The notes under the pieces were generated by a model. It made no database searches and had not been told where the DNA came from. It saw only the letters and a list, made by a program, of their open reading frames with translations. Shown here piece by piece: positions 6,939-49,443 of a DNA stretch of 64,000 nucleotides. The DNA comes from Simmondsia chinensis (taxonomy: Eukaryota > Streptophyta > Magnoliopsida > Caryophyllales > Simmondsiaceae): positions 5,951,001-6,015,000 of the forward strand of contig JAGTTD010000011.1 in the NCBI GenBank assembly GCA_018398585.1. Reading direction: 5' to 3'. The position numbers were made by a program, and so were the translations under genes. Every line of letters starts with the position of its first letter. The stretch's first letter is position 1.

Positions 6939-6989
<51 letters not shown>

Positions 6990-13400: not shown

Positions 13401-14190
13401 TAATGAAAAATGAATTTTTAAGAGGGAAGGTTGAGATCACACTTTTTACGAAACACTATATATTGATGATATAGTCTTTGAAGCATCTAACCCATCTATT
13501 TGTGAAGAATTTGCAAATCTTTTCAGTAGGGATTCGAAATGTGCATGTTGAGAGAAATCAACTACTTCCTTGGATTGCAAATCACGTAAGGCAAGGAAGA
13601 AATTTCATCAACCAAGCCAAGTAAATCAAGGGAATGCTTAAGAAGTTTGGCATAGAAAATTCTAAGGCAATTGTAACCCTAATGAGCTCAACATTCAAGC
13701 TAGACATGGATGGAAAAATGAAAAAAGGTGGATCAATATGCCAAATAGAGGTACGATTTGATTCCTTGTTTACCATTCCATGGGCAGACTTGATATCTTG
13801 TTTAATGTGTACATGTCCAGAAGAATTGCAATATTGCGCATTTAAAACAATTTTTTTCGATGCCTAGTTGGTATGTAGACTTGTCCTATCCCAAGTGATA
13901 TTTCCTAGATCTAGTTTGATATAGTGATGTGGATTTTGATTGTTTCAAAAGTGGACTAGAAATCATATTGTGAAATTTGTCTATTTATTGGTCATGCCTT
14001 AGTATCATGGTTTTTTTTTTAAAAAAAAAAAAAAGAAAGGGAACGTTGGCTCATCCACTGTTGAGGTCAAATACATTGCTTGTGTAAGTCATTGTGCTAA
14101 AACATCTCATTAATGCATGAATTTGATTACCACATTTTTATCAATCATGCTTCTATTATGTGTGATAATGCTAGTACAATATGCTAAACC
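10477..14190 (+). pseudogene. Sirevirus-like Ty1/copia gag-pol remnant
   Basis: The domains follow copia order. The primer-binding site is at about 10,479. An acidic gag tail follows (SDEESINTSEEEQVNSCLMV, near 10,850). A zinc knuckle (YHYCGDYGHIGYKC, near 11,425) has its first cysteine changed to Y. The protease (KWCLDSGFSSHIIGDKSK, near 11,630) keeps the D-S-G triad. The integrase core is recognisable (SDHGR near 12,390, then N-G-M-VEKK near 12,490). Reverse transcriptase has DLYGLKQAPRAWYEKL near 13,350 and NYFLGLQIT near 13,565, and an RNase H tail ends near 14,190. Many stops and frame shifts make it non-functional. The 3' end and 3' LTR are missing. Confidence 0.85.
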
Positions 14191-14285: not shown

Positions 14286-14394
14286 ATTTGTATTATATAT
14301 TTTAAAGTAAATTATTTATCAATACCTGATATTTAATGTATTAATTTTTCATTTATAAACTTTATAAAAAATAACTTTTTTTATTCAAAAGTCT

Positions 14395-14632
14395 CTGGAG
14401 TATAACCGCATGACCAAGACACGGTTTTGCAGTATAACCGCGTGAACAAGACTCGGTTTATGTTATATATAACCCCGTCTTGTTGACGTGGTTTATGGTT
14501 AAAAATGCAACGCGGTTTTTTGTGACTTTAAACACGTTTTTTTGACGCAGTTCAACATTAGATTTAGAAATATATTTTTTTTCAGCATTATTTTTTTTTA
14601 TTTTTTAACATTATTTTCGGAACCGAATTTAT
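14395..14632 (+). mobile_element. Diverged relative of the array MULE (right end)
   Basis: It has CGCGG-type modules (ataaccgcgtgaacaagac, aatgcaacgcggtttttt) and then gttcaacattagatttagaa and attattttcggaaccgaatt. This is the same order as the right terminus of the array element (gttcaacagtagatttggaa ... attattttgggaaccgactc). It is clearly more diverged than any array copy. Its left end is not identifiable. Confidence 0.6.
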
Positions 14633-14986: not shown

Positions 14987-15089
14987 ACTTTTACCGAGTC
15001 GGTTCCCAAAATAATGCTAAAAAATAAAAAAATTAAAAAAATAATGCTGAAAAAAAAAATTTCCAAATCTACTGTTGAACCGCGTTTAC
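14987..15089 (+). mobile_element. Intact left terminus of the array MULE, with 9-bp TSD
   Basis: The 9-bp sequence acttttacc (14,987-14,995) precedes gagtcggttccc. From 14,996 to about 15,089 the sequence is the inverted complement of the MULE right end in unit 1, which finishes at 16,414 and is followed by the same acttttacc (16,415-16,423). Inverted ends of about 95-100 bp plus a 9-bp duplication are the hallmark of Mutator-like elements. This left end occurs only once; all later units start internal to it. Confidence 0.85.
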
Positions 15090-15636
15090 AAAATGCGGCT
15101 TTAATAAACCGCGTCCATAAACCGCGTATAACATTGGTCTAAGCCGCGTTTTAATAATCTAACATTGGTATAAGGGGTAAGGCTGCGTACATTCACCCTC
15201 CCGAGCTTGCTTTTGCGGGAGCCCGTAAGGCACTGGGATGTTGTTGTTGTTGTTGTTATTCTTATTTTCGCTTTTCTATTTTCAATTTTTATTCTTGTTT
15301 TTGGCATCTGTTCAAATAATCTAAAACCCAAGATGATACATGTATCAAAATTGAGGGTTACGATTTTAATCAAGGTGTAAATTATTCGACTCTACTTAAA
15401 TCCCTCATTTTTACTGGATTTCTAGCTTCAAATCTGGGAGACACTCTTTAAAAAAAAAAAAAAGAAGAAGAAGAAGAAACAGGGGGACACTCTGTTGAAA
15501 AAAAAAATAAAATTGGGAGACACAATTAAAGTTGTCAATCAAATGGCTTGTTGCATGTTAATCTTTTACTCCACGTCTTTTTGTTGATTTATCCGCATTT
15601 TTAAGATAAAGATTTTTTGTACATAATTTAGCATAC
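15090..15636 (+). repeat. Array unit 0 (deleted)
   Basis: It starts directly after the intact MULE left end. At about 15,172 the hairpin block (aacattggtataa) jumps into the SINE domain (ggggtaaggctgcg), removing about 1.9 kb: most of the MULE, the leader and the intron-like part. The words aacattggt and ttttaataa are locally duplicated at the junction. Confidence 0.85.
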
Positions 15637-18078
15637 AAAACGCGGCTTTAATAAACCACGTCCATAAACCGCGTATAACATTGGTATAAACCGCGTTTTA
15701 ATAACGCTATTATATTAATAAAACCGCGTCACGACAACACGGTTATATAAGTAAAACCGCGTCAAAAAGACGCGTTTTATTAAAGAAAAAACCGCGTTAT
15801 GAAGACGGGGTTTACCATTGTTATAACCGCGTCTTTAGGACCCGGTTTACTAGGTTTATCTAAAAAATTCCGGCCCATTCATTCACTCGTGCTCTCTCCG
15901 CTGCTCTCACCGTCCCTCTGCCTCTTTCTCGTTAACCCACCACTAGTCACGTTGTTCGCCTCCTCCTTTCTTTTGCTTATACACTAGAGATCTTTCATGT
16001 ACTATTATTGGAGTTATTTGACCTCCACTTATGATGTTGGAGCTTACCATTATGGGATCAATATGATAATCATCACAAATTGCGGCATAATAAAAACTAT
16101 AAGCGAACAAAAAAGTGAAGAATTGCGGCATAATGGTAAGTATAAGTGAAAAAAAGGGGATTTTGGATTCCTGGCGTTAAACCGTGTTTTATAAACGCGG
16201 TTCATAGGTAAACCGCGTTTAGTAGACGCGGTTCATTGGTAAACCGCGTTTAGTAGACGCGGTTTATATTGAAGTGAACCGAATTTTTTTGATCCGATTT
16301 TATTGAAATTTAAACGCGTTTTGTAAACACGGTTCAACAGTAGATTTGGAAATATTTTTTTCAGGTTATTTTTTTAATTTTTTTATTTTTTAGCTTTATT
16401 TTGGGAACCGACTCACTTTTACCCACCCCCCTGCTTTCCCCTTCTTCACGTCACGCTCACCACCTCCCACTCTCGTCCCCCATCTTGCTTCCCGCTCTCG
16501 TCCCAGCCGCAACTCTCTCGGTCCAGCCGTAACTCTCTCGTCCCAGCCCCTTGTCTCTTCCCACTCCGCTGACGCTCGGACTCGAAAATCCGTCCCCCCT
16601 CAACTCTGAATCCGGACCTCAGGTAGTAGATTGTGGAATGATTTAAGAGTTTTAGCATAGCGTAATTTAGTATCTGCTTTATTTTAGTTTTTACACATAT
16701 TTTGTTTAGAACATGTGAAATTTTGGAGAAAGTGGAATGATTTGAAAGCTTGGGCAGTATGTAATTTGGTATATGTTTTATTTCTTGTGTGAAATTTTTT
16801 AATTTTTGTAGTATGACTTTTTCAAGGTTTTTGGATGGGTAGTTTTTTTGGCATACCAGGTTTTGAGATTGATATTCTTAAAAGGGGTCTTTAACAAATT
16901 GGGAGCCTCAAGCAACTGCTTTTATTGCTTGGAGACTAGGCCTAGTTGTAGGGTTGCATCTTGCAAATTGCTTTCATTTGATTTGGAAGTAGATTTATGG
17001 AAATAATGTTGATCTGAGCCTTTATAGCATTTTCTGTTCTCCAAGATGTCATAGTGTGATTGTCAATGGCTGAAATTTTTGCAATTAGTGTACTGTTTAG
17101 CGGAGATGTGAGTCTGATTATGGGAGGTTTACAATGGGGCAAAGTCGAAAATACACAGTGCCTAGCATGAGTCGATGTTACCAATTCAGTTGTGATTTAC
17201 TTTTGGAAGTGGAGTACTTTGAACCAAGTGAGGAGATACTATAAGCAAGCTATTGTGCTGGATTTCTTGGACCTTATCTTTGTCTTAAGCTTGAGCTTCA
17301 TTTATCAATTGATGTTCAACTTTGACATGGATTTGGAGTGGTCATTTGGATTGTGATATTGAATTCATGCCTTAGAATGCTAATCTCATATATGTTTGAA
17401 ATTAACTCGTTGGCTCTTAACTAGCTAACGCGGATTTACCCCCTGTGGTGTGCTTATGTGCGTATGCTTATGTGTGTATGGATGTGGTCTATTTGCCTTA
17501 TTATGTGCAGTGAATGTGTCTTTGACATGACCTAACCCTTTTCAAGATGCCTTGCTTGCAGGACGGCAAGACCTTCAGGTTGGGGGTCCTTGGAAACAGC
17601 CTCTCTTCCACTCGGAAGGGGTAAGGCTGCGTACATCCACCCTCCCGAACTTGCTTTTGCGGGAGCCGGTAAGGCACTGGGATGTTGTTGTTATTGTTGT
17701 TATTCTTATTTGTGCTTTTCTATTTTCAATTTTTATTCTTGTTTTTGGCATCTGTTCAAATAATCTAAAACCCAAGATGATAAATGCATCAAAATTGAGG
17801 GTTACGATTTCAATCAAGGTGTAAATTATTCGACTCTACTTAAATCCTTCATTTTTACTGGATTTCAACCTTCAAATCTGGGAGACACTCTTTAAAAAAA
17901 AAAAAAGAAGAAGAAGAAACGGGGGGACACTCTGTTGAAAAAAATAAAATAAAATTGGGAGACACAATTAAAGTTGTCAATCAAATGGCTTGTTGCATGT
18001 TAATCTTTTACTCCACGTCTTTTTGTTGATTTATCCCCATTTTTAAGATAAAGATTTTTTGTACATAATTTAGCATAC
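15637..18078 (+). repeat. Array unit 1
   Basis: 2,442 bp. The MULE right end is at 16,414, followed by the target duplication at 16,415-16,423. It lacks the fourth right-hand hairpin module (gtgaaccgcgtttactaaac) found in most units. Confidence 0.93.
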
Positions 18079-20501
18079 AAAATGCGGCTTTAATAAACCG
18101 CGTATAACATTGGTATAAACCGCTTTTAATAACGCGCTTATATTAATAAAACCGCGTCACAACAACGCGGTTATATGAATAAAACCGCGTCAAAAAGACG
18201 CGTTTTATTAAAGAAAAAACCGCGTTATGAAGACGCGGTTTACCATTGTTATAACCGCGTCTTTAGGGCCCGGTTTACTAGGTTTATCTAAAAAATTCCG
18301 GCCCATTCATTCACGCGTGCTCTCTCCGCTGCTCTCACCGTCTCTCTGCCTCTTTCTCGTTAACCCACCACCAGTCACGTCGTTCGCTTCCTCATTTCTT
18401 TTGCTTATACACTAGAGATCTTTCATGTACTATTATTGGAGTTATTTGACCTCCACTTATGATGTTGGAGCTTACCATTATGGGATCAATATGATAATCA
18501 TTACAAATTGCGGCATAATAAAAACTATAAGCGAACAAAAAAGTGAAGAATTGCGGCATAATGGTAAGTATAAGTGAAAAAAAAGGGGATTTTGGATTCC
18601 TGGCGTTGAACCGTGTTTTATAAACGCGGTTCATGGGTAAACCGCGTTTAGTAGACGCGGTTCATTGGTAAACCGCGTTTTGTAGACGCGGTTCATATTA
18701 AAGTGAACCGAATTTTTTTGATCCGGTTTTATTGAAATTTAAACGCGTTTTGTAAACGCGGTTCAACAGTAGATTTGGAAATATTTTTTTTTCAGCGTTA
18801 TTTTTTTTATTTTTTATTTTTTAGCATTATTTTGGGAACCGACTCACTTTTACCCACTCCCCTGCTTTCCCCTTCTTCACGTCATGCTCACCATCTCCCG
18901 CTCTCGTCCCCCATCTCGCTTCCCGGTCTCGTCCCAGCCGCAACTCTCTCGTTCCAGCCGTAACTCTCTCGTCCCTACCCCTTGTCTCTTCACACTCCGC
19001 TGACGCTCGGACTCGAAAATCCGTCCCCCCTCGACTCTGAATCCGGACCTCAGGTAGTGGATTGTGGAATGATTTGAGAGTTTTAGCATAGCATAATTTA
19101 GTATCTGCTTTATTTTAGTTTTTACACATATTTTGTTTAGAACATGTGAAATTTTGGAGTAAGTGGAATGATTTGAAAGTTTGGGTAGTATGTAATTTGG
19201 TATATATTTTATTTCTTGTGTGAAATTTTTTAATTTTTGTAGTATGACTTTTACAAGATTTTTGGATGGGTAGTTTCTTTAGCTTACCAGGTTTTAAGAT
19301 TGATATTCTTAAGAGGGGTCTTTAACAAATTGGGAGCCTCAAGCAACTGCTTTTATTGCTTGGAGACTAGGCCTAGTTGTAGGGTTGCATCTTGCAAATT
19401 GCTTTCATTTGATTTGGAAGTAGATTTATGGAAATAATGTTGATCTGAGCCTTTATGGCATTTTCTGTTCTCCAAGATGTCATAGTGTGATTGTCAATGG
19501 CTGAAATTTGTGCAATTAGTGTACTGTTTAGCGGAGATGTGAGTCTGATTAGGGGAGGTTTACAACGGGGCAAAGTCGAAAATACACAGTGCCTAGCATG
19601 AGTCGATGTTACCAATTCAGTTGTGATTTACTTTTGGAAGTGGAGTACTTTGAACCAAGTGAGGAGATACTATAAGCAAGCTATTGTACTAGATTTCTGG
19701 GACCTTATCTTTGTCTTAAGCTTGAGCTTCATTTATCAGTCGATGTTCAACTTTGACATGGATTTCGAGTGGTCATTTGGATTGTGATATTGAATTCATG
19801 CCTTAGAATGCTAATCCCATATATGTTTGAAATTAACTCGTTGCCTCTTAACTAGCTAACGCGGATTTAACCCCTCTGGTGTGCTTATGTGCGTATGCTT
19901 ATGTGTGTATGGATGTGGTCTATTTGCCTTATTATGTGCCGTGAATGTGTCTTTGACATGACCTAACCCTTTTCAAGATGCCTTGCTTGCAGGACGGCAA
20001 GATCTTCAGTTTGGGGGTCCTTGGAAACAGCCTCTCTTCCACTCAGAAGGGGTAAGGCTGCGTACATCCACCCTCCCGAACTTGCTTTTGCGGGAGCCCG
20101 TAAGGCACTGGGATGTTGTTGTTATTCTTATTTGTGCTTTTCTATTTTCAATTTTTATTCTTGTTTTTGGCATCTGATCAAATAATCTAAAACCCGAGAT
20201 GATAAATGCATCAAAATTGAGGGTTACGATTTCAATCAAGGGTTAAATTATTTGACTCTACTTAAATCCTTCATTTTTACTGGATTTCTAGCTTCAAATC
20301 TGCTAGACACTCTTCAAAAAAAAAAAGAAGAAGAAGAAGAAATGGGGGGACACTCTGTTGAAAAAAAAAAAAAAAAATTGGGAGGCACAATTAAAGTTGT
20401 TAATCAAATGGCTTGTTGCATGTCAATCTTTTGCTCTACGTCTTTTTGTTGATTTATCCGCATTTTTAAGATAAAGATTTTTTGTACATAATATAGCATA
20501 C
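18079..20501 (+). repeat. Array unit 2
   Basis: 2,423 bp. MULE right end at 18,845. Like unit 1 it lacks the fourth right-hand module, and it has also lost a 13-bp tccataaaccgcg step in the left block. Confidence 0.93.
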
Positions 20502-22972
20502 AAAACGCGGCTTTAATAAACCGCGTCCATAAACCGCGTATAACATTGGTATAAACCGCGTTTTAATAACGCGATTATATTAATAAAATCGCGTCATGAC
20601 AACGCGGTTATATAAGTAAAACCGCGTCAAAAAGACGCGTTTTATTACAGAAAAAACCGCGTTATGAAAACGCGGTTTACCATTGTTATAACCGCGTCTT
20701 TAGGACCCGGTTTACTAGGTTTATACAAAAAATCCTGGCCCATTCATTCACGCGTGCTCTCTCCGCTGCTCTCACCGTCTCTCTGCCACATTCTCGTTAA
20801 CCAACCACCCGTCACCTCGTTCGCCTCCTCCTTTCTTTTGCTTATACACTAGAGATCTTTCATGTTCTATTATTGGAGTTTTTTGACCTCCACTTATGAT
20901 GTTGCAGCTTACCATTATAGGATCAATATGATAATCATCAGAAATTGTGGCATAATAAAAACTATAAGCGAACAAAAAAGTGAAGAATTGCGGCATAATG
21001 GTAAGTCTAAGTGAAAAAAAAGGGATTTTGGATTCCTGGCGTTAAACCGTGTTTTATAAACGCGGTTCATAGGTAAACCACGTTTAGTAGACGCGGTTCA
21101 TTGGTAAACCGCGTTTAGTAGACGCGGTTTATATTGAAGTGAACCGCGTTTACTAAACGCGGTTTATTCTGAAATAAACCGAATTTTTTTGATCCGATTT
21201 TATTGAAATTTAAATGCGTTTTGTAAACACGGTTCAGCAGTAGATTTGGAAATATTTTTTTTCAGTGTTATTTTTTTATTTTTTAGCATTATTTTGGGAA
21301 CCGACTCACTTTTACCCATCCCCCTGCTTTCCCCTTCTTCACATCACGCTCACCATCTCCCGCTCTTGTCCCCCATCTCGTTTCCCGCTCTCGTCCCAGC
21401 CGCAACTCTCTCGTTCCAGCCGTAACTCTCTCGTCCCAGCCCCTTGTCTCTTCCCACTCCGCTAACGCTCGGACTCGAAAATCCGTCCCCCCTCGACTCT
21501 GAATCCGGACCTCAGGTAGTAGATTGTGGAATGATTTAAGAGTTTTAGCATAGCGTAATTTAGTATCTGCTTTATTTTAGTTTTTACACATAATTTGTTT
21601 AGAACATTTGAAATTTTGGAGAAAGTGGAATGATTTGAAAGTTTGGGTAGTATGTAATTTGGTATATGTTTTATTTCTTGTGTGAAATTTTTTAATTTTT
21701 TTAATATGACTTTTTCAAGGTTTTTGGATGGGTAGTTTTTTTGGCATACCAGGTTTTGAGATTGATATTCTTAAGAGGGGTCTTTAAGAAATTGGGAGCC
21801 TCAAGCAACTGCTTTTATTGCTTGAAGAGTAGGCCTAGTTGTAGGGTTGCATCTTGAAAATTGCTTTCATTTGATTTAGAAGTAGATTTATGGAAATAAT
21901 GTTGATCTGAGCCTTTATAGCATTTTCTGTTCTCCAAGATGTCATAGTGTGATTGTCAATGGCTGAAATTTGTGCAATTAGTGTACTATTTAGCGGAGAT
22001 GTGAGTCTGATTAGGGGAGGTTTACAACGGGGCAAAGTCGAAAATACACAGTACCTAGCATGAGTCGATGTTACCAATTCAGTTGTGATTTACTTTTGGA
22101 AGTGGAGTACTTTGAACCAAGTGAGGAGATACTATAAACAAGCTATTGTGCTAGATTTCTTGGACCTTATCTTTGTCTTAAGCATGAGCTTCATTTATCA
22201 GTTGATGTTCAACTTTGACATGGATTTGGGGTGGTCATTTGGATTGTGATATTGAATTCATGCCTTAGAATGCTAATCTCATATATGTTTGAAATTAATT
22301 CGTTGGCTCTTAACTAGTTAACGCGGATTTACCCCCCGTGGTGTGCTTATGTGCGTTTGCTTATGTGTGTATGGATGTGGTTTATTTTCCTTATTATGTG
22401 CCGTGAATGTGTCTTTGATATGACCTAACCCTTTTCAAGGTGCCTTGCATGCAGGACGGTAAGATCTTCAGGTCGGGGGTCCTTGGAAACAGCCTCTCTT
22501 CCACTCGGAAGGAGTAAGGCTGCGTACATCCACCCTCCCGAACTTGCTATTGCGGGAGCCCGTAAGGCACTGGGATGTTGTTGTTGTTGTTGTTATCTTA
22601 TTTGTTCTTTTCTATTTTAAATTTTTATTCCTGTTTTTGGCATCTTTTTAAATAATCTAAAACCCAAGATGATACATGCATCAAAATTGAGGGTTACGAT
22701 TTCAATCAAGGTGTAAATTATTCGACTCTACTTAAATCCTTCATTTTTACTAGATTTCTAGCTTCAAATCTGGGAGACACTCTTTAAAAAAAAAAAAAAA
22801 AGGAGAAGAAGAAACGGGGGGACACTCTATTGAAAAAAAAAATAAAAATTGGGAGACACTATTAAAGTTGTCAATCAAATGGCTTGTTGCATGTTACTCT
22901 TTTACTCCACGTCTTTTTGTTGATTTATCCGCATTTTTAAGGTAAAGAATTTTTGTACATAATTTAGCATAC
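20502..22972 (+). repeat. Array unit 3
   Basis: 2,471 bp. MULE right end at 21,307. First unit from the left with all four right-hand hairpin modules. Confidence 0.93.
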
Positions 22973-25455
22973 AAAACGCGGCTTTAATAAACCGCGTCCA
23001 TATACCGTGTATAACACTGGTATAAACCGCGTTTTAATAACGCGGTTCTATTAATTAAAACGCGTCACGACAACGAGGTTATATAAGTAAAACCGCGTCA
23101 CAAAGACGCGTTTTATAAAGAAAAAACCGCGTTATGAAGACGCGGTTTACCATTGTTATAACCGCGTCTTTAGGACCCGGTTTACTAGGTTTATCTAAAA
23201 AATCCCGGCCCATTCATTCACCCGTGCTCTCTCCGCTGCTCTCACCGTCTCTCTGCCTGTTTCTCGTTAACCCACCACCAGTCACGTCGTTCGCCTCCTC
23301 CTTTCTTTTGCTTATATACTAGAGATCTTTCAAGTACTATTATTGGAGTTATTTGACCTCCACTTATGATGTTGGAGCTTACCATTATGGGATCAATATG
23401 ATAATCATCACAAATTGCGGCATAATAAAAACTATAAGCGAACAAAAAAGTGAAGAATTGCATCATAATGGTAAGTATAAGTGAAAAAAAGGGAATTTTG
23501 GATTCCTGGCGTTAAACAGTGTTTTATAAACGCGGTTCATAGGTAAACCGCGTTTAGTAGACGCGGTTCATTGGTAAACAGAGTTTATCAAGTACGGTTT
23601 ATATTGAAGTGAACCGCGTTCACTAAACGCGGTTTATTCTGAAATAAACCAAATTTTTTTGATCCGATTTTATTGAAATTTAAACGCGTTTTGTAAACGC
23701 GGTTCAACAGTAGATTTGGAAATATTTTTTTTTCAGCGTAATTTTTTAAATTTTTTTTATTTTTTAGCATTATTTTTGGAACCGTCTCACTTTTACCCAC
23801 CCCCCTGCTTTCCCCTTCTTCACGTCACGCTCACCATCTCCCGCTCTCGTCCCCCATCTCGCTTCCCGCTCTCGTCCCAGCCGCAACTCTCTCGTTCCAG
23901 CCGTAACTCTCTCGTCCCTGCCCCTTGTGTCTTCCCACTCCGCTGACACTCGGACTCGAAAATCTGTCCCCCCTCGACTTTGAATCCGGATCTCAGGTTG
24001 TGGATTGTGGAATGATTTGAGAGTTTTAGCATAGCGTAATTTAGTATCTGCTTTATTTTAGTTTTTACACATATTTTGTTTAGAATATGTGAAATTTTGG
24101 AGAAAGTGGAATGATTTGAAAGTTTGGGTAGTATGTAATTTGGTATATGTTTTATTTCTTGCGTGAAATTTTTTAATTTTTGTAGTATGAATTTTTCAAG
24201 GTTTTTGGATGGGTAATTTTTTTGGCATACCAGGTTTTGAGATTGATATTCTTAAGGGGGGTCTTTAACAAATTGGGAGCCTCAAGCAACTGCTTTTATT
24301 GCTTGGAGACTAGGGCTAGTTGTAGGGTTGCATCTTGCAAATTGCTTTCATTTGATTTGGAAGTAGATTTATGGAAATAATGTTGGTCTGAGCCTTTATA
24401 GCATTTTCTGTTCTCCAAGATGTCATAATGTGATTGTCAATGGCTGAAATTTGTGCAATTACTGTACTGTTTAGCGGAGATGTGAGTCTGATTAGGGGAG
24501 GTTTACAACGGGGCAAAGTCTAAAATACATAGTGCCTAGCATGAGTCGATGTTACTAATTCAGCTGTGATTTACTTTTGGAAGTGGAGTACTTTGAACCA
24601 AGTGAGGAGATACGATAAGCAAGCTATTGTGCTGGATTTCTTGGACCTTATCTTTGTCTTAAGCTTGAGCTTCATTTATCAGTTGATGTTCAACTTTGAC
24701 ATGGATTTGGAGTGGTCATTTGGATTGTGATATTGAATTCATGCCTTAGAATGCTAATCTCATATATGTTTGAAATTAACTCGTTGGCTCTTAACTAGCT
24801 AACGCGGATTTACCCCCTGTGGTGTGCTTATGTGCGTATGCTTATGTGTGCATGGATGCGGACTATATGCCTTATTATGTGCTGTGAATGTGTCTTTGAC
24901 ATGACCTAACCCTTTTCAAGATACCTTGCTTGCAGGACGGCAAGATCTTCAGGTTGGGGGTCCTTGGAAACAGCCTCTCTTCCACTCGGAAGGGGTAAGG
25001 CTGCGTACATCCACCCTCCCAAACTTGCTTTTGCGGGAGCCCGTAAGGCACTTGGATGTTGTTGTTGTTGTTGTTATTCTTATTAGTGCTTTTCTACTTT
25101 CAATTTTTATTCTTGTTTTTGGCATCTGTTCAAATAATCTAAAACCCAAGATGATACATGCATCAAAATTGAGGGTTACGATTTCAATCAAGGTGTAAAT
25201 TATTCGACTCTACTTAAATCCTTCATTTTTACTCGATTTCAAGCTTCAATTCTGGGAGACACTCCTTAAAAAAAAAAAAAAAGAAGACGAAGAAGAAACG
25301 GGGGGACACTCTGTTGAAAAAAAAAATAAAATTGGGAGAGACCATTAAAGTTGTCAATCAAATGGCTTGTGGCATGTTACTCTCTTACTCCATGTCTTTT
25401 TATTGATTTATCCGCATTTTTAAAAGAAAGATTTTTTGTACATAATTTAGCATAC
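22973..25455 (+). repeat. Array unit 4
   Basis: 2,483 bp. MULE right end at 23,788, with the variant ccgtctc terminus shared with units 5, 9 and 10. Its third right-hand module is degenerate (aaacagagtttatcaagtac). Confidence 0.93.
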
Positions 25456-37115: not shown

Positions 37116-39592
37116 AAAACGCGGCTTTAATAAACCGCATCCATAAACCGCGTATAACATTGGTATAAACCGCGTTTTTATAACCCGGTTATATTAATAA
37201 AAACGCGTCACGACAACGAGGTTACATAAGAAAAACCGCGTCACAAAGACGCGTTTTATAAAGAAATAACCGCGTTATGAAGACACGGTTTACCAATGTT
37301 ATGACAGCGTCTTCAGGACCCGGTGGTTTAACTAAAAAATTCCGGCCCATTCATTCACGCGTCCTCTCCCCGCTGCTCTCACCGTCTCTCTGCCTCTTTC
37401 TCGTTAATCCCCCACCAGTCACGTCGTTCGCCTCCTCTATTCTTTTGCTTATACACTAGTGATCTTTCAAGTACTATTATTGGAGTTATTTAACCTCCAC
37501 TTATGATGTTGGAGCTTACCATTATAGGATCAATATGATAATCATCACAAATTGCGGCATAATAAGAACTATAAGTGAACAAAAAAGTGAAGAATTGCAG
37601 CATATTGGTAGTACAAGTGAAAAAAAGGGGATTTTGGATTCCTGGCATTAAACCGTGTTTTATAAGCGCGGTTCATAGGTAAACCGCGTTTAGTAGACGC
37701 GGTTCATTGGTGAACCGCGTTTAGCAGACGCGGTTTATATTGAAGTGAACCGCGTTCACTAAACGCGGTTTATTCTGAAATAAACCAAATTTTGTTGATC
37801 CGATTTTATTGAAATTTAAACGCGTTTTGTAAATGCGGTTCAACTGTAGATTTGGAAATTTTTTTTTTCAGCGTTATTTTTTAAATTTTTTTATTTTTTA
37901 GCATTATTTTGGGAACCGTCTCACTTTTACCCACCCCCCTGCTTTCTCCTTCTTCACGTCGCGCTCACCATCTCCCGCTCTCGTCCCCCATCTCGCTTCC
38001 CGCTCTCGTCCCTGCCGCAACTCTCTCGTTCCAGCCGTAACTCTCTCGCCCCTGCCCCTTGTCTCTTCCCACTCCGCTGACGCTCGGACTCGAAAATCCG
38101 TCCCCCCTCGACTCTGAATCCGGACCTCAGGTAGTGGATTGTGGAATGATTTGAGAGTTTTAGCATAGCGTAATTTAGTATCTGCTTTATTTTAGTTTTT
38201 ACACATATTTTGTTTAGAACATGTGAAATTTTGGAGAAAGTGGAATCATTTGAAAGTTTGGGTAGTATGTAATTTGGAATATGTTTTATTTCTTGCGTGA
38301 AAATTTTTAATTTTTGTAGTATGACTTTTTAAAGGTTTTTGGATGGGTAGTTTTTTTGGCATACCAGGTTTTGAGATTGATATTCTTAAGAGGGGTCTTT
38401 AACAAATTGGGAGCCTCAAGCAACTGCTTTTATTGCTTGGAGACTAGGCCTAGTTGTAGGGTTGCGTCTTGCAAATTGCTTTCACTTGATTTGGAAGTAG
38501 ATTTATGGAAATAATGTTGATCTGAGCCTTTGTAGCATTTTCTGTTCTCCAAGATGTCATAGTGTGATTGTCAATGGCTGAAATTTGTGCAATTAGTGTG
38601 CTGTTTAGCGGAGATGTGAGTCTGATTAGGGGAGGTTTACAACGGGGCAAAGTCGAAAATACACAGTGCCTAGCATGAGTCGATGTTACCAATTCAGTTG
38701 TGATTTACTTTAGGAAGTGGAGTACTTTGAACCAAGTGAGGAGATACTATAAGCAAGCTATTGTGTTGGATTTCTTGGACCTTATCTTTGTCTTAAGCTT
38801 GAGCTTCATTTATCAGTTTATGTTCAACTTTGACATGGATTTGGAGTGGTCATTTGGATTGTGATATTGAATTCATGCCTTAGAATGCTAATCTCATATA
38901 TGTTTGAAATTAACTCGTTGGCTCTTAATTAGCTAACGCGGATTTACCCCCTCTGGTGTGCTTATGTGCGTATGCTTATGTGTGTATGGATGTGGTCTAT
39001 TTGCTTTATTATGTGCCGTGAATGTGTCTTTGACATGACTTAACCCTTTTCAAGATGCCTTGCTTGCAGGACGGCAAGATCTTCAGGTTGGGGGTACTTG
39101 GAAACAGCCTCTCTTTCACTCGGAAGGGGTAAGGCTGCATACATCCACCCTCCCGAACTTGCTTTTGCGCGAGCCCGTAAGGCACTGGGATGTTGCTGTT
39201 GTTGTTGTTATTCTTAATTGTGCTTTTCTATTTTCAATTTTTATTCTTGTTTTTGGCATGTGTTCAAATAATCTAAAACCCAAGACGATAAATGCATCAA
39301 AATTGAGGGTTACGATTTAAATCAAGGTGTAAATTATTCGACTCTGCTTAAATCCTTCTTTTTTACTGGATTTCAAGCTTCAAATCTTGGAGACACTCTT
39401 TTAAAAAAAAAAAAAAGAATAAGAAGAAGAAACGGAGGGACACTCTGTTGAAAAAAAAAAAAAAAATATTGGGAGACACCATTAAAGTTGTCAATCAAAT
39501 GGCTAGTTGCATGTTACTCTTTTACTCCACGTCTTTTTGTTGATTTATCCGAATTTTTAAGATGAAGATTTTTTGTACATAATTTAGCATAC
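37116..39592 (+). repeat. Array unit 10
   Basis: 2,477 bp. MULE right end at 37,922. Partner of unit 5 in the block duplication. A small deletion at about 37,322-37,330 removes part of the ggtttactaggttt step. Confidence 0.93.
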
Positions 39593-42060
39593 AAAACGCG
39601 GCTTTCATAAACCGCATCCATAAACCGCGTATAACATTAGTATAAACCGCGTTTTAATAACGCAGTTATATTAATAAAACAGTGTCAGGACAACGTGGTT
39701 ATATAAGTAAAACCGTGTCACAAAGACGCGTTTTATTAAAGAAAAAACAGCGTTATGAAGACGCGGTTTACCATTGTTATAACCGCGTCTTTAGGACCCG
39801 GTTTACTAGGTTTATCTAAAAAATCCCGGCCCATTCATTCACGCGTGCTCTCTCCGCTGCTCTCACCGTCTCTCTGCCTCTTTCTCGTTAACCCACCACC
39901 AGTCACGTCGTTCGCCTCCTCCTTTCTTTTGCGTATACACTAGAGATCTTTCAAGTACTATTATTGGAGTTATTTGACCTCCATTTATGATGTTGGAACT
40001 TACCATTATGGGATCAATATGATAATCATCACAAATTGCGGCATAATAAAAACTATAAGCGAACAAAAAAAGTGAAGAAATATAATGGTAAGTATAAGTG
40101 AAATAAAAGGGGATTTTGGATTCCTGGCATTAAACCGTGTTTTATAAACGCGGTTCATGGGTAAACCGCGTTTAGTAGATGCGGTTCATTGGTAAACCGC
40201 GTTTAGTAGACGCGGTTTATATTGAAGTGAACCGCGTTTACTAAACGCGGTTTATTCTGAAATAAACCGAATTTTTTTGATCTGATTTTATTGAAATTTA
40301 AACACGTTTTGTAAAAGCGGTTCAACAGTAGTTTTGGAAATATTTTTTTTCCAGTGTTACTTTTTTATTTTTTAGCATTATTTTTGGAACCGACTCACTT
40401 TTACCCATCCCCCTGCTTTTCCCTTCTTCACATCATGCTCACCATCTCCCGCTCTTGTCCCCCATCTCGTTTCCCGCTCTCGTCCCAGCCGCAACTCCCT
40501 CGTTCCAACCGTAACTCTCTCGTCCCAGCCCCTCGTCTCTTCCCACTCCGCTGACGCTCGGACTCGAAAATTCGTCGCCCCTCGACTCTGAATCCGGACC
40601 TCAGGTAGTAGATTGTGGAATGATTTGAGAGTCTTAGCATATCGTAATTTAGTATCTGCTTTATTTTAGTTTGTACACATATTTTGTTTAGAACATGTGA
40701 AATTTTGGAGAAAGTGGAATGATTTGAAAGTTTGGGTAACATGTAATTTGGTATATGTTTTATTTCTTGTGTGAAATTTTTTAATTTTTTTAGTTTAACT
40801 TTTTCAAGGTTTTTGGATGGGTAGGTTTTTTGGCGTACTAGGTTTTGAGATTGATATTCTTAAGGGGGGTCTTTTACAAATTGGGAGCCTCAAGCATCTG
40901 CTTTTATTGCTTGGAGACTAGGCCTGGTTGTAGGGTTGCATCTTGCAAATTGCTTTCATTTGATTTGGAAGTAGATTTATGGAAATAATGTTGATCTGAG
41001 CCTTTATAGCATTTTCTGTTCTCCATGATGTCATAGTGTGATTGTCAATGGCTGAAATTTGTGCAATTAGTGTACTGTTTAGCGGAGATGTGAGTCTGAT
41101 TAGGGGAGGTTTACAACGAGGCAAAGTCGAAAATACACAGTGCCTAGCATGAGTCGATGTTACCAATTCAGTTGTGATTTACTTTTGGAAGTGGAGTACT
41201 TTGAACCAAGTGAGGAGATACTATAAGCAAGCTATTGTGCTGGATTTCTGGGACCTTATCTTTGTCTTAAGCTTGAGCTTCATTTATCAGTTGATGTTCA
41301 ACTTTGACATGGATTTGGAGTGGTCATTTGGATTGTGATATTGAATTCATGCCTTAGAATGCTAATCTCATATATGTTTGAAATTAACTCGTTGGCTCTT
41401 AACTAGCAAACGCGGATTTCCCCCCTGTGGTGTGCTTATATGTGTATGCTTATGTGTGTATGGATGTGGTCTATTTGCCTTATTATGTGCCGTGAATGTG
41501 TCTTTGACATGACCTAACCCTTTTCAAGATGCCTTGCTTGCAGGACGGCAAGATCTTCAGGTTGGGGGTCCGTGGAAACAGCCTCTCATCCACTCGGAAG
41601 GGGTAAGGCTGCGTACATCCACCCTCCCGAGCTTGCTTTTGCGGGAGCCCGTAAGGCACTGGGATGTTGTTGTTGTTGTTGTTATTCTTATTTGTGCTTT
41701 TCTATTTTCCATTTTTGTTCTTGTTTTTGGCATCTGTTCTAATAATCTAAAACCCAAGATGATAAATGCATCAAAATTGAGGGTTACGATTTCAATCAAG
41801 GTGTAAATTATTCGACTCTACTTAAATCCTTCATTTTTACTGGATTTCAAGCTTCAAATCTGGGAGACACTCTTTAAAAAAAAAAAAAAGAAGAAGAAGA
41901 AACGGGGGGACACTCTGTTGAAAAAAAAAAAAAAAATTGGCAAACACCATTAAAGTTGTCAATCAAATGGCTTGTTGCATGTTACTCTTTTACGCCACGT
42001 CTTTTTGTTGATTTATCCGCATTTTTAAGATAAAGATTTTTTGCACATAATTTAGCATAC
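39593..42060 (+). repeat. Array unit 11
   Basis: 2,468 bp. MULE right end at 40,396. Partner of unit 6, except that about 40,734-41,030 matches unit 9 (gggtaacatgtaatttgg, ggtaggttttttggcgtact, aggcctggttg). Confidence 0.93.
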
Positions 42061-44519
42061 AAAACGCGGCTTTAATAAACCGCGTATAACATTGGTATAA
42101 ACCGCGTTTTAATAACGGGGTTATATTAATAAAACCACGTCACGACAACGCGGTTATATAAGTAAAACCGCGTCACAAAGACGTGTCTTATTAAAGAAAA
42201 AACCGCGTTATGAAGACGCTATTACCATTGTTATAAGCGCGTCTGTAAGACCCGGTTTACTAGGTTTATCTAAAAAATTTCGGCCCATTCATTCTCGCGT
42301 GCTCTCTCGGCCGCTCTCACCGTCTCTCTTCCTCTTTCTCGTTAACCCACCACCAGTCACGTCGTTCGCCTCCTCCTTTCTTTTGCTTATACACTAGAGA
42401 TCTTTCAAGTGCTATTATTGGAGTTATTTGACCTCCACTTATGATGTTCGAGCTTACCATTATGGGATCAATATGATAATCATCCCAAATTGCGGCATAA
42501 TAAAAACTATAAGCGACCAAAAAAGTGAGGAATTGCGGCATAATGGTAAGTATAAGTGAAAAAAGGGGATTTTGGATTCCTGGCGTTAAACCGTATTTTA
42601 TAAACGCGGTTCATGGGTAAAACACGTTTAATAGACGCCGTTTATTGCTAAACCGCGTTTAGAAGACGCGGTTTACGTTGAAGTGAACCGCGTTTACTAA
42701 ATGCTGTTTATTCTGAAATAAACCGAATTTTTTTGATCCGATTTTATTAAATTTAAACGCGTTTTGTAAACTCGGTTCAACAGTAGTTTTGGAAATATTT
42801 TTTTTTCAGCGATATTTTTTTAATATTTTTATTTTTTAGCATTATTTTTGGAACCGACTCACTTTTACCCACCCCCCTGCTTTCCCCTTCTTCACGTCAC
42901 GCTCACCATCTCCCGCTCTCGTCCCCCATCTCGCTTCCCGCTCTCGTCCAAGCCGCACTACTCTCGTTCCAGCCGTAACTCTCTCGTCCCAGCCCCTTGT
43001 CTCTTCCCACTCCGGTGACGCTCGGACTCGATAATCCGTCCCCGCTTGACTCTGAATCCGGACCTCAGGTAGTAGATTGTGGAATGATTTGAGAGTTTTA
43101 GTATAGCACAATTTAGTATCTGCTTTATTTTAGTTTTTACACATATTTTGTTTAGAACATGTGAAATTTTGGAGAAAGTGGAATGATTTGAAAGTTTGGG
43201 TAGTATGTAATTTGGTATATGTTTTATTTCTTGTGTGAAATGTGTTAATTTTTTTAGTATGACTTTTTCAAGGTTTTTGGATGGGTAGTTTTTTTGGCAT
43301 ACCAGGTTTTGAGATTGATATTCTTAAGAAGGGTCTTTAACAAATTGGGAGCCTCAAGCAACTGCTTTTATTGCTTGGAGACTAGGCCTAGTTGTAGGGT
43401 TGCATCTTGCAAATTGCTTTCATTTGATTTGGAAGTAGATTTATGGAAATAATGTTGATCGAAGCCTTTATAGCTTTTTCTGTTCTCCAAGATGTCATAG
43501 TGTGATTGTCAATGGCTGAAATTTGTGCAATAAGTGTACTGTTTAACAGAGATGTGAGTCTGATTCGGGGAGGTTTACAACGGGGCAAAGTCGAAAATAC
43601 ACAGTGCTTAGCTTGAGTCGATGTTACCAATTCAGTTGTGATTTACTTTTGGAAGTGGAGTACTTTGAACCAAGTGAGGAGATACTATAAGCAAGCTATT
43701 GTGCTGGATTTCTGGGACCTTAGCTTTGTCGTAAGATTAAGCTTCATTTATCAGTTGATGTTCAACTTTGACATGGATTTGGAGTGGTAATTTGGATTGT
43801 GATATTGAATTCATGCCTTAGAATGCTAATCTCATATATGTTTGAAATTAACTCGCTGGCTCTTAACTAGCTAACGCGGATTTACCCCCTGTGGTGTGCT
43901 TATGTGCGTATGCTTATGTGTGGATGGATGTGGTCTATTTGCCTTATTATGTGCCGTGAATGTGTCTTTGACATGACCTAACCCTTTTCGAGATGCCTTA
44001 CTTGCAGGACGGCAAGATTTTCAGTTTGGGATCCTTGGAAACAGCCTCTCTTCCACTCGGAAGGGTAAGGCTGTGTACATCCACCCTCCCGAACTTGCTT
44101 TTGCGGGAGCCCGTAAGGCACTGGGATGTTGTTGTTGTGTTTGTTATTCTTATTTGTGCTTTCCTATTTTTAATTTTTATTCTTGTTTTTGGCATTTGTT
44201 CAAATAATCTAAAACCCAAGATGATAAACGCATCAAAATTGAGGGTTACGATTTCAATCAAGGTGTAAATTATTCGACTCTACTTAAATCCTTCATTTTT
44301 ACTGGATTTTCAGCTTCAAATCTGGGAGACACTCTTTAAAAAAACAAAAAAAGAAGAAGAAGAAACGGGGGGACACTCTATTGAAAAAAAAAAAATTGGG
44401 AGACACCATTAAAGTTGTCAATCAAATGGCTTGTTGCATGTTACTCTTTTACTCCACGTCTTTTTGTTGATTTATCCGCATTTTTAAGATAAAGATTTTC
44501 TGTACATAATGTAGCAAAC
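42061..44519 (+). repeat. Array unit 12
   Basis: 2,459 bp. MULE right end at 42,860. The first half matches unit 7 and the second half unit 8. Lacks the tccataaaccgcg step, as in unit 2. Confidence 0.93.
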
Positions 44520-46963
44520 AAAACGCGGCTTTAATAAACCGCATCCATCAACCGCGTATAACGCTGTTATATTAATAAAACCGCGTCACGACAACGCGGT
44601 TATATGAGTAAAACCGCGTCACAAAGACGTGTTTTATTAAAGAAAAAACCGCGTTATGAAGACGCGGTTTACCATTGTTATAGCCGAGTCTTTAGGACCC
44701 GATTTACTAGGTTTATCTAAAAAATTCAGGCCCATTCATTCACGCGTGCTCTCTCCACTGCTCTCACCGTCTCTCTGCCTCTTTCTCGTTAGCCCACCAC
44801 CAGTCACGTCGTTCGCCTCCCCCTTTCTTTGGCTTATGCACTAGAGATCTTTCAAATACTATTATTGGAGTTATTTGACCTCCACTTATGATGTTAGAGC
44901 CTACAATTATGGGATCAATATAATAATCATCACAAATTGCGGCATAATAAAAACTATAAGCGAACAAAAAAGTGATGAATTGCGGCATAATGGTAAGTAT
45001 AAGTGAAAAAAAAGGGGATTTTGGATTCCTGGCGTTAAACCATGTTTTATAAACGCGGTTCATGGGTAAACTGCGTTTAGTAGACGCGGTTCATTAGTAA
45101 ACCGCGTTTAGGAGACGCGGTTTATATTGAAGTGAACCACGTTTATTAAATGCAGTTTATTCTGAAATAAACTAAATTTTTTTGAACTGGTTTTATTGAA
45201 ATTTAACCGCGTTTTGTAAACGCGGTTCATCGGTAGATTTGGAAATTTTTTTTTTTCAGCGTAATTTTTTTAATTTTTTTAATTTTTAGCATTATTTTGG
45301 GAACCGACTCACTTTTACCCACCCCCCTGCTTTCCCCTTTTCACGTCATGCTCACTATCTCCCGCCCTCGTCCCCCATCTCGCTTCCCGCTCTCGTCCCA
45401 GCTGTAACTCTCTCGTTCCAGCCGTAACTCTCTCGTCCCAGCCCCTTGTCTCTTCCCACTCCGCTGACGCTCGGACTCAAAAATCCGCCCCCCCTCGACT
45501 CTGAATCCGGGCCTTAGGTAGTAGATTGTGGAATGATTTGAGAGTTTTAGCATAGCGAAATTTAGTATCTGCTTCATTTTAGTTTTTACACATATTTTGT
45601 TTAGAACATGTGAAATTTTGGAGAAAGTGGAATGATTTGAAAGTTTGGGTTGTATGTAATTTGGTATATGTTTAATTCTTGCGTGAAATTTTTTAATTTT
45701 TTTAGTATGAGTTTTTCAAGGTTTTTGGATGGGTAGTTTTTTTGGCATACCAGGTTTTGAGATTGATATTCTTAAGAGGGGTCTTTAACAAATTGGGAGC
45801 CTCAAGCAACTGCTTTTATTGCTTGGAGACTAGGCCTAGTTGTAGGGTTGCATCTTGCGAATTGCTTTCATTTGATTTGGAAGTAGATTTATGGAAATAA
45901 TGTTGATCTGAGCCTTAATAGCATTTTCTGTTCTCCATGATGTCATAGTGTGATTGTCAACGGCTGAAATTTGTGCAATTAGTGTACTGTTTAGCAGAGA
46001 TGTGAGTCTGGTTAGGGGAGGTTTACAACGGGGCAAAGTCGAAAATACACAGTGCCTAGCATGAGTCGATGTTACCAATTCAGTTGTGATTTACTTTTGG
46101 AAGTGGAGTACTTTGAACCAAGTGAGGAGATACTATAAGCAAGCTATTGTGCTGGATTTCTTGGACCTTGCCTTTGTCTTAAGCTTGAGCTTCATTTATC
46201 AGTTGATATTCAACTTTGACATGGATTTGGAGTGGTCATTTGGATTGTGATATTGAATTCATGCCTTAGAATGCTAATCTCATATATGTTTGAAATTAAC
46301 TCGTTGGCTCTTAACTAGCTCACGCGGATTTACCCCCTGTGGTGTGCTTATGTGCGTATGCTTATGTGTGTATGGATGTGGTCTATTTGCATTATTATGT
46401 GCCGTGAATGTGTCTTTGACATGACCTAACCCTTTTCAAGACGCCTTGCTTGCAGGACGGCAAGATCTTCAGGCTGGGGGTCCTTGGAAACAGCCTCTCT
46501 TCCACTCGGAAGGGGTAAGGCTGCGTACATCCACCCTCCCGGACTTGCTTTTGCGGTAGCCCATAAGGCACTGGGATGTTGTTATTCTTATTTGTGCTTT
46601 TCTATTTTCAATTGTTATTCTTGTTTTTGGCATCTGTTCAAATAATCTAAAACCCAAGATGATAAATGTATCAAAATTGAGGGTTACGACTTCAATCAAG
46701 GTGTAAAGTATTCGACTCTACTTAAATCCTTCACTTTTACTGGATTTCAAGCTTCAAATCTGGGAGACACGATTTAAAAAAAAAAAAAAAAGGAAGAAGA
46801 AGAAACGGGGGGACACTCTGTTGAAGAAAAAAAAAATAATTTGGGAGACACCATTAAAGTTGTCAATCAAATGGCTTGTTGCATGTTACTTTTTTACTCC
46901 ACGTCTTTTTGTTGATTTATCCGCATTTTTAAGATGAAAATTTTTTGTACATAATTTAGCATA
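44520..46963 (+). repeat. Array unit 13
   Basis: 2,444 bp. MULE right end at 45,310. It shares its first 45 or so bases with unit 9 (gcatccatcaaccgcg), then has lost one hairpin step of the left block. Confidence 0.93.
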
Positions 46964-47780
46964 AAAAATGCGGCTTTAATAAACCGCGTCCATAAACTGC
47001 GTATAACATTGGTATAAACCGCGTTTTAATAACGCGGTTATATTAATAAAACTGCGTCACGACAACGCGGTTATATAAGTAAAACCGCGTCACAAAGACG
47101 TGTTTTATTAAAGAAAAAACCGCGTTATGAAGACGCGGTTTACCATTGTTATAACCGCATCTTTAGGACCCGGTTTACTAGGTTTATCTAAAAAATCCCG
47201 GCCCATTCATTCACGCGTGCTCTCTCCGCTGCTCTCACCGTCTCTCTGCCTCTTACTCGTTAACCAACCACCAGTCACGTCGTTCGCTTCCTCCTTTCTT
47301 TTGCTTATACACTAGAGATCTTTCAAGTACTATTATTAGAGTTATTTGACCTCCACTTATGATGTTCGAGCTTACCATTATGGGATCAATATGATAATCA
47401 TCATAAATTGCGGCATAATAAAAACTATAAGCAAACAAAAAAGTGAAGAATTGCGGCATAATGGTAAGTATAAGTGAAAAAAAAGGGGATTTTGGATTCC
47501 TGGCATTAAACCGTGTTTTATAAACGCGGTTCATGGGTAAACCGCGTTTAGTAGACGCGGTTCATTGGTAAACCGTGTTTAGTAGACACGGTTTATATTG
47601 AAGTGAACCGCGTTTACTAAACGCAGTTTATTCTGAAATAAACCGAATTTTTTTGATCCAATTTTATTGAAATTTAAACGCTTTTTGTAAACACGGTTCA
47701 ACAGTGGATTTGAAAATTTTTTTTTTCAGCGTTATTTTTTTTATTTTTTTATTTTTTAGCATTATTTTGGGAACTGACTC
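46964..47780 (+). mobile_element. MULE-derived block of reference unit 14
   Basis: This is a non-autonomous MULE lacking its outermost left 94 bp. It has a left cluster of AACCGCGT/ACGCGGTT hairpins (46,970-47,180), a CT-rich then AT-rich core (47,200-47,500), a right cluster of similar hairpins (47,505-47,640), and the terminal inverted repeat (47,675-47,780). No transposase is encoded. The CT-rich core (cattcattcacgcgtgctct...) resembles a plant leader and may be captured host sequence, as in Pack-MULEs; that is inference. Equivalent blocks occur in all 14 units. Confidence 0.8.
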
Positions 47781-47789
47781 ACTTTTACC

Positions 47790-47988
47790 CACCCCCCTGC
47801 TTTCCCATACTTCACGTCACGCTCACCATCTCCCGCTCTCGTCCCCCATCTCGCTTCCCGCTCTCATCCCAGCCGCAACTCTCTCGTTCCAGCCATAACT
47901 CTCTCGTCCCAGCCCCTTGTCTCTTCCCACTCCGCTGAGGCTCGGACTCGAAAATTCGTCCCCCCTCGACTCTGAATCCGGACCTCAG
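47790..47988 (+). other. CT-rich leader/exon-1-like segment (reference unit)
   Basis: About 200 bp immediately right of the MULE target duplication. It is dominated by CTCTCGTCCC-type words and ends gaatccggacctcag/gtagtag, a good match to an exon-AG/GT donor. CT-rich leaders of this kind are common at plant transcription starts. It contains no ATG-started frame of note on the plus strand. I infer that it was the first, non-coding exon of a host gene whose 5' end was amplified. Confidence 0.5.
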
Positions 47989-48927
47989 GTAGTAGATTGT
48001 GGAATGATTTGAGGGTTTTAGCATAGCGTAATTTAGTATCTGCTTTATTTTAGTTTTCACACATATTTTTTTTAGAACATGTGAAATTTTGGAGAAAGTG
48101 GAATGATTTGAAAGTTTGGGTAGTATGTAATTTGGTATATGTTTTATTTCTTGTGTGAAATTTTTTAATTTTTTTAGTATGACTTTTTCAAGGTTTTTGG
48201 ATGGGTAGTTTTTTTGGCATACCAGGTTTTGAGATTGATATTCTTAAGAGGGGTCTTTAACAAATTGGGAGCCTCAAGCAACTGCTTTTATTGCTTGGAG
48301 ACTAGGCCTAGTTGTAGGGTTGCATCTTGCAAATTGCTTTCACTTGATTTGGAAGTAGATTTATGGAAATTATGTTGATCTGAGCCTTTATAGCATTTTC
48401 TGTTCTCCAAGATGTCATAGTGTGATTGTCAATGGCTGAAATTTGTGCAATTAGTGTACTGTTTAGCGGAGATGTGAGTCTGATTAGGGGAGGTTTACAA
48501 CGGGGCAAAGTCGAAAATACACAGTGCCTAGCATGAGTCGATGTTACCAATTCAGTTGTGATTTACTTTTGGAAGTGGAGTACTTTGAACCAAGTGAGGA
48601 GATACTATAAGCAAGCTATTGTGCTGGATTTCTTGGACCTTATCTTTGTCTTAAGCTTGAGCTTCATTTATCAGTTGATGTTCAACTTTGACATGGATTT
48701 GGAGTGGTCATTTGGATTGTGATATTGAATTCATGCCTTAGAATGCTAATCTCATATATGTTTGAAATTAACTCGTTGGCTCTTAACTAGCTCACGCGGA
48801 TTTACCCCCTGTGGTGTGCTTATGTGCGTATGCTTATGTGTGTATGGATGTGGTCTATTTGCCTTATTATGTGCCGTGAATGTGTCTTTGACATGACCTA
48901 ACCCTTTTCAAGATGCCTTGCTTGCAG
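47989..48927 (+). other. Intron-like segment (reference unit)
   Basis: T-rich sequence from gtagtagattg to the acceptor-like ccttgcttgcag at 48,916-48,927. The following 17 bases, gacggcaagatcttcag, are bounded by another GT and could be a micro-exon, but this may be chance. The segment is the best-conserved part of the unit among copies. A frame of about 80 codons on the minus strand is open in most copies but starts with TTG. Confidence 0.4.
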
Positions 48928-48950
48928 GACGGCAAGATCTTCAGGTTGGG

Positions 48951-49068
48951 GGTCCTTGGAAACAGCCTCTCTTCCACTCGGAAGGGGTAAGGCTGCGTAC
49001 ATCCACCCCTCCGAACTTGCTTTTGCGGGAGCCCGTAAGGCACTGGGATGTTATTGTTGTTGTTGTTA
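48951..49068 (+). mobile_element. Angio-domain SINE 3' region (reference unit)
   Basis: ggtccttggaaacagcctct, ggggtaaggctgcgtacatc, gcgggagcccgtaaggcact and gggatgtt, then TTG repeats. This is the conserved 3' domain of plant SINEs of the TS/Angio type. No promoter head is seen upstream, so the copy is 5'-truncated. It predates the array, since every complete unit carries it at the same place. Confidence 0.78.
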
Positions 49069-49443
49069 TTCTTATTTGTGCTTTTCTATTTTCAATTTTT
49101 ATTCTTGTTTTTGGCATCTGTTCAAATAATCTAAAACCCAAGATGATAAATGCATCAAAATTGAGGGTTACGATTTCAATCAAGGTTTAAATTATTCGAC
49201 TCTACTTAAATCCTTCATTTTTACTGGATTTCAAGCTTCAAATCTGGGAGACACTCTTTAAAAAAAAAAAGAAGAAGAAGAAGAAACGGGGGGACACTCT
49301 GTTGAAAAAAAAAAAAAATTTGGGGGACACCATTAAAGTTGTTCATCAAATGGCTTGTTGCATGTTACTCTTTTACTCCACGTCTTTTTGTTGATTTATC
49401 TGCATTTTTAAGATAAAGATTTTTTGTACATAATTTAGCATAC
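49069..49443 (+). other. Unit tail: A-rich stretch and AT-rich end
   Basis: Non-coding. It includes gggagacactcttt, then poly(A) and GAA repeats, then ggggggacactctgttg and another poly(A): two related half-repeats (gagacactctt / ggacactctgt) about 35 bp apart. It ends atttagcatac. Confidence 0.5.

Follow-up and report, generated by a model that had tools for sequence, protein, structure and literature searches.

The closest described systems are tandem arrays seeded by transposons. Tetris/TIR-220 of Drosophila virilis is a satellite array born from a class II transposon (PMC4079207), and satellites derived from MITEs are also known (PMC9659126). As presented in the portions of these reports at hand, both resemble the Simmondsia chinensis locus analysed here in that a non-autonomous inverted-repeat element supplies the DNA for a kilobase-scale tandem array. 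The Tetris unit, as described there, lies within its element, whereas the Simmondsia unit straddles an element end and holds twice as much flanking DNA as transposon DNA.

In plants, LTR-retrotransposon tandems and retrotransposon-derived satellites (PMC11899658, PMC7004042) are likewise tandem arrays founded by transposons. The excerpts of those reports describe shared LTRs or short arrays expanded within a retrotransposon, whereas here the founder is a DNA transposon and the unit is mostly flank. Non-autonomous MULEs form linear arrays in the SaTar elements of guayule and rice (PMC5907723); according to the same kind of excerpt, SaTar arrays consist of unrelated elements at microsatellites, whereas here one insertion was amplified together with its flank. 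Alternative transposition in maize also duplicates transposon ends with flanking DNA (PMC3744419, PMC4270019). The maize duplications of PMC3744419 carry 8-bp target duplications at their junctions, as far as the available part of that report states, whereas the junction found here lies inside a terminal repeat and shows a 3-bp match. Judged by title and the start of the abstract, none of the open-licence literature matches listed describes a unit spanning a MULE end and consisting mostly of neighbouring DNA.

The array belongs to a known kind, the transposon-seeded tandem array, with an origin that is unusually legible. We consider it probable that a MULE insertion was followed by a duplication at a 3-bp match, one burst of amplification and independent decay of the copies, leaving a neutral, macrosatellite-like array. 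The start of such arrays is usually hidden by later homogenisation. At this locus the insertion, the founding junction, the burst and the later exchanges can be ordered from one sequence, which makes both the start of the array and the part played by the DNA transposon testable in related plants. The locus illustrates how a large repeat array can grow from a transposon.

Layout and composition of the array

The window, a stretch of 64,000 nt, contains a 34-kb head-to-tail array with a period of about 2.45 kb at 14987-49443 (Table 1). Repeated 20-mers occupy 38-100% of every 500-bp bin across 15001-49500, whereas no bin elsewhere exceeds 6%. The ten most frequent 20-mer spacings are 2431-2489 bp, and aligning one unit to the window yielded head-to-tail copies throughout the array, confirming the 2.45-kb tandem array of the original prediction. 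Its limits also proved nearly exact, as the left target-site duplication opens at position 14987 and the founding microhomology closes at position 49443.

Unit boundaries were set by cutting at the recurrent junction ...TAGCAT/ACAAAA (the slash marks the cut). This gave 15 unit traces, named U00-U14, of which 12 are full length (2423-2501 bp) and three (U00, U07 and U08) are shortened by deletions. The predicted count of about 14 copies holds for the MULE right end and the leader, which are present in 14 units, but falls one short of the number of traces.

Pairwise identity among the 12 full-length units averages 94.6% (range 93.3-97.7%). These units differ from one another by 2.3-6.7%, and each carries 41-85 substitutions from the consensus with only 1-8 indel events, which argues against an assembly duplication of the simple kind. 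The chimeric unit, conversion tract and junction fillers described below are also biologically sensible. Although the outermost units are less changed than the inner ones, as uneven polishing might give, we regard it as very improbable that the array is a short repeat inflated or mis-joined during assembly.

Table 1. Positions of the array, its units and their parts in the window. U14, the last full unit, serves as the reference for unit anatomy.
Feature	Position	Strand	Remarks
Left copy of the target-site duplication ACTTTTACC	14987-14995	.	
Sole left terminal inverted repeat of the MULE	14996-15097	+	100/103 columns vs consensus right repeat
Tandem array, traces U00-U14	15088-49441	+	period ~2.45 kb
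U00, internally deleted	15088-15634	+	deletion junction with 14-bp filler at 15158-15171
U01	15635-18076	+	
U02	18077-20499	+	
U03	20500-22970	+	
U04	22971-25453	+	
U05	25454-27954	+	
U05-U07, block related to U10-U12	25454-32334	+	
U06	27955-30421	+	
U07, 3' end lost	30422-~32334	+	
U07 and U08, fused by deletion	30422-34671	+	deletion near 32326-32338, 13-bp filler
U08, 5' end lost	~32335-34671	+	
U09	34672-37113	+	
U10	37114-39590	+	
U10-U12, block copy of U05-U07	37114-44517	+	
U11	39591-42058	+	
U12	42059-44517	+	
U13	44518-46962	+	
U14, last full unit	46963-49441	+	reference for anatomy
Hairpin block A in U14	46963-47188	+	palindromic CCGCG/CGCGG repeats
Hairpin block B in U14	47542-47684	+	limits approximate
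MULE right terminal inverted repeat in U14	47678-47780	-	inner limit approximate
Right copy of the target-site duplication in U14	47781-47789	.	intact in 14/14 units
CT-rich leader-like segment	47790-47988	+	CAG end before donor-like GT; CAGGT in 13/14 units
Intron-like DNA	47989-48927	+	acceptor-like TTGCTTGCAG at end; TTGCTTGCAGG identical in 10/13 units scored
SINE-like segment	48943-49069	+	(TTG)n end; 77% identity over 138 columns to body of 5S-headed element 56581-56841
Right array edge ...CATAC	49439-49443	+	TAC also in MULE left arm

The units consist of the MULE minus its first 92 bp, plus 1.66 kb of neighbouring DNA. In unit coordinates, the transposon without its left end occupies 1-819 and the target duplication 820-828. 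A CT-rich leader follows, closed by CAGGT at 1025-1029; the acceptor-like TTGCTTGCAGG stands at 1957, a SINE-like segment lies at about 1979-2108, and the tail runs to 2480. The CT-rich leader, donor-like site and intron-like DNA expected in the units are all present, with "leader", "donor" and "intron" serving as putative labels for the appearance of the sequence only. MULE-derived DNA is likewise found in the units, but none holds the whole MULE that had been assigned to each, as the left terminal repeat is present only once, at 14996-15097. The leader sits outside the transposon and was therefore not captured by it, as the original prediction held, but co-duplicated with it through a junction inside the left terminal repeat, and the units lack the left end.

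The array has 11 open reading frames (ORFs) of at least 120 aa (stop to stop), all of them minus-strand frames that cross leader and intron. Two of the 11 were scanned in Pfam as possible coding sequence and gave sub-cutoff matches only, which we took as chance. Across the whole window, the only Rfam match at gathering score was a 5S rRNA outside the array; a sub-threshold Rfam match in 48600-49100 was also taken as chance. ARAGORN found no tRNA.

The founding MULE and its junction

The combination of long inverted repeats with a 9-bp target duplication marks an element as a MULE. At the left edge of the array, GAGTCGGTTCCC... occurs in one copy only, and its reverse complement closes the transposon part of 14 units. 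Aligned to the reverse-complemented consensus right repeat, the left terminal inverted repeat (about 102 bp) shows 2 mismatches and 1 gap, and the 9-bp target-site duplication adjoins the left end as well as all 14 right ends. This length falls within the 8-11 bp given for MULE target-site duplications in the accessible part of PMC5907723. A search for the terminal-end pattern returned 16 matches, with 0.15 expected by chance: the single left end, the 14 right ends and, outside the array, one relic at 14607-14624. The element carries no transposase of its own, as judged from the 11 ORFs of at least 120 aa, which lie wholly or almost wholly in leader and intron, and from the two of them scanned in Pfam, which gave no match above cutoff. 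The array was founded by a non-autonomous MULE.

The reconstructed element is about 0.91 kb long, made up of the 92 bp that the units lack and the 819 bp that they carry. It holds two blocks of palindromic CCGCG/CGCGG repeats, and the segment between these blocks, where a Pack-MULE would carry host gene sequence, contains GGCCCATTCATTC and CT-rich DNA. The relic outside the array is a right end of the same MULE family; it occupies 14379-14626, is 69% identical to the unit consensus over 270 columns and ends 370 bp upstream of the left end of the array.

The left arm of the MULE, ...GTTTAC/AAAATGCGG, and the right flank, ...GCATAC/TTCG, have TAC in common. Nine of the 13 inner junctions read ...GCATAC/AAAA, and the other four are off by one or two letters. 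A tandem duplication whose ends met at a 3-bp match leaves this pattern, and the junction that it implies sits in the left terminal repeat, 92 bp from the outer end. The element of about 0.91 kb inserted at ACTTTTACC, in front of the CT-rich leader-like sequence, as the paired duplication and terminal repeats show. We propose that afterwards, and possibly soon, a 2.48-kb stretch that starts 92 bp inside the left end and extends 1.66 kb past the right end was joined head-to-tail at TAC. The junction itself can be read directly; end joining or template switching may have produced it, and three matching bases give little support to any single joining pathway.

The position of the junction bears on whether the MULE itself caused the amplification, through aberrant excision with interrupted gap repair or through transposition during replication, either of which would have re-copied the element and its flank. 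A breakpoint that falls within the left terminal repeat, at 92 bp from the outer end, would fit such a role, as would a time of amplification compatible with that of insertion, the same-family relic close upstream and the transposition-induced re-replication described for maize in the portion of PMC4270019 at hand. A breakpoint in the terminal repeat could nevertheless be coincidence. Moreover, duplication by reversed-ends transposition places its junction at an outer transposon end together with a new target-site duplication, as in the duplications presented in the available part of PMC3744419, and the junction here has neither. We consider a causal role of the MULE rather unlikely. We give the same low weight to the idea that the small insertion directly triggered the birth of a macrosatellite, with failed repair or re-replication copying most of the element and a neighbouring gene leader in a single episode to about a dozen copies, and leaving the junction of that birth, the target duplication, the chimera and the scars of repair all still legible.

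A probable single burst, mostly independent decay and rare exchange

Our preferred reading, a duplication at the 3-bp match followed by one burst, makes use of the divergence among the copies. The left arm and the consensus right arm disagree at 3 of 103 columns, and the units average 4.6% from the consensus in the right-end region, suggesting that amplification may have closely followed insertion, within the wide timing margin that so few differences leave.

Without U00, the other 14 units form a tree that is near-star in shape. Three of its 11 inner branches are well supported and unite the pairs U05/U10, U06/U11 and U07/U12; the other inner branches are 0.0003-0.003 in length, compared to a median of 0.018 for the end branches. 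The star is imperfect, because an inner branch uniting U04, U05, U09 and U10 has moderate support (84/92) and a length of 0.0027. Changes private to one unit number 478 (excluding those of U00), compared to 218 shared changes. The near-star tree suggests that copy number rose mainly in one burst, which would have yielded about a dozen copies through unequal exchange or re-replication, after which the copies would have diverged mostly independently.

Later events were few and comprise a block duplication with a chimeric unit, a clear gene-conversion tract and two filler-repaired deletions. The three well-supported pairs are collinear and about 11.64 kb apart, and this shared order and spacing indicate that the block U05-U07 was later copied to U10-U12. 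Branch lengths date the copying to a time when the units held roughly half of their present changes. U12 and U07 alone have 28 changes in common, all at unit positions 73-1203, and U12 and U08 alone have 16, all at 1434-2480; this split identifies U12 as a chimera from exchange between neighbouring units. Eight changes common to U09 and U11 all fall in 1162-1349 and form the one clear conversion tract. Further tracts may be represented by five changes common to U05, U09 and U10 (305-509) and four common to U03, U06 and U11 (769-893).

We noted one separate cluster in which eight changes exclusive to U06 and U11 lie within 15 bp, at unit positions 481-495. It looks like one template switch or misrepair.

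The fillers at the two deletions (14 bp in U00 and 13 bp in U07/U08) have 10-letter matches within 100 bp and so would resemble nearby sequence. In a control with random array words, 94 of 1815 and 78 of 1719 draws matched their surroundings as closely as the fillers did; because homologous units inflate this control, the filler evidence is only moderate.

The original prediction had also suggested an emerging satellite. In size and origin the locus fits, being a head-to-tail array of similar units, but its dynamics do not. Neighbouring full units are 93.6-96.1% identical, compared to 94.6% for all pairs, giving no indication of ongoing homogenisation, and exchange between units is limited to the block duplication, the chimera and the clear conversion tract. 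The near-star tree and the rarity of exchange point to an old burst followed by mostly independent decay.

Divergence is not uniform along the unit or among the units. The intron-like part has diverged by 2.1%, compared to approximately 2.6-4.6% elsewhere, and unit positions 1201-1800 hold 90 of the 478 private changes where 116 were expected (p 0.005). The observed/expected CpG ratio is 0.39 in the intron-like part and 2.01 in the transposon part, and low CpG content may account for part of the lower intron-like divergence. Non-deamination changes are also rarer in the intron-like part, and constraint could explain its lower divergence. In U01 and U14, the outermost full units, 41 and 48 changes were counted compared to about 78 expected (p 4e-6 and 1e-4, respectively), about half the number found in inner units. 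This deficit consists mainly of non-CpG changes and is sharpest in the intron-like part of U14 (5/908 compared to 21 expected). A uniform neutral clock does not explain the low counts in these two units.

Deamination was considered as the main source of divergence and rejected. In the 14 units, private C-to-T changes number 50 at CG, 20 at CHG and 88 at CHH, over 200, 123 and 649 sites, respectively, so that private CG changes are about 1.8 times as frequent as those at other C sites.

Hairpin blocks, possible function and surroundings

The segment 46963-47191, which spans hairpin block A, has an RNA folding energy of -92.7 kcal/mol, whereas 200 shuffles of it average -48.5 (z -10.3), and the entire transposon part of U14 gives a z of -9.7 compared to 20 shuffles. 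For hairpin maintenance, we placed the observed substitutions at random in 200 simulated sets, using 13 units for block A (U08 skipped for gaps) and 11 for block B (U01, U02 and U09 skipped for gaps), with U00 outside the test. The fraction of simulated sets at least as stable on average was 0.24 for block A and 0.05 for block B. Selection for hairpin maintenance is not shown for block A and is borderline for block B.

These results bear on the possibility that the array is a functional repeat, in which each unit would act as a putative promoter with a non-coding first exon, or as a source of hairpin RNA, and would be kept for dosage, silencing or small RNA. The original prediction had raised a multi-promoter array and a small-RNA source as possible roles. 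Hairpin blocks that fold far better than shuffles, the borderline advantage of block B over its simulated counterparts, the less diverged intron-like part and the retention of CAGGT in 13 of 14 units and of GGCCCATTCATTC in all 14 are consistent with such a role. Against the neutral reading, ACTTTTACC is unchanged in all 14 units as well, where approximately 75% of 9-mers are expected to be unchanged. However, the leader strand has no ORF of at least 120 aa within the array, block A lacks maintenance, and deletions have removed the leader and intron of U00 and the intron end of U07. We therefore consider a functional repeat improbable. The array is most likely neutral and macrosatellite-like, and any regulatory role is putative.

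The left flank of the array contains a CCCH zinc-finger exon (2618-3019) and two reverse-transcriptase fragments (Pfam RVT_2; 8228-8437 and 13253-13471). On the right side, a complete-looking 261-bp SINE lies on the minus strand at 56581-56841 and consists of a 5S-rRNA head, a body and a (TTG)n end. The head matches positions 1 to 120 of the Rfam 5S rRNA model (59.8 bits). The element is flanked by 16-bp target duplications, AATTATCCTTAAATTA, in which the first four matched bases of the head lie. Its body and the SINE-like segment of the array unit are related to each other. Plant SINEs are generally known as tRNA-headed elements. SINEs with a 5S head (SINE3) have been described from Lepidoptera, and the plant element Cassandra has been speculated to stem from a SINE3 insertion, both as given in the accessible part of one report (PMC10886601).

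A 5'-truncated relative of this SINE body (76% identity over 85 columns) occupies 4676-4790, apparently between two copies of TATGTTAGCCTAGGCA, as read by eye. A run of about 54 G at 6939-6992 seems unusually long. Near the right end of the window, 63376-63864 is a 193-bp tandem repeat with 2.5 copies and a 79% match.
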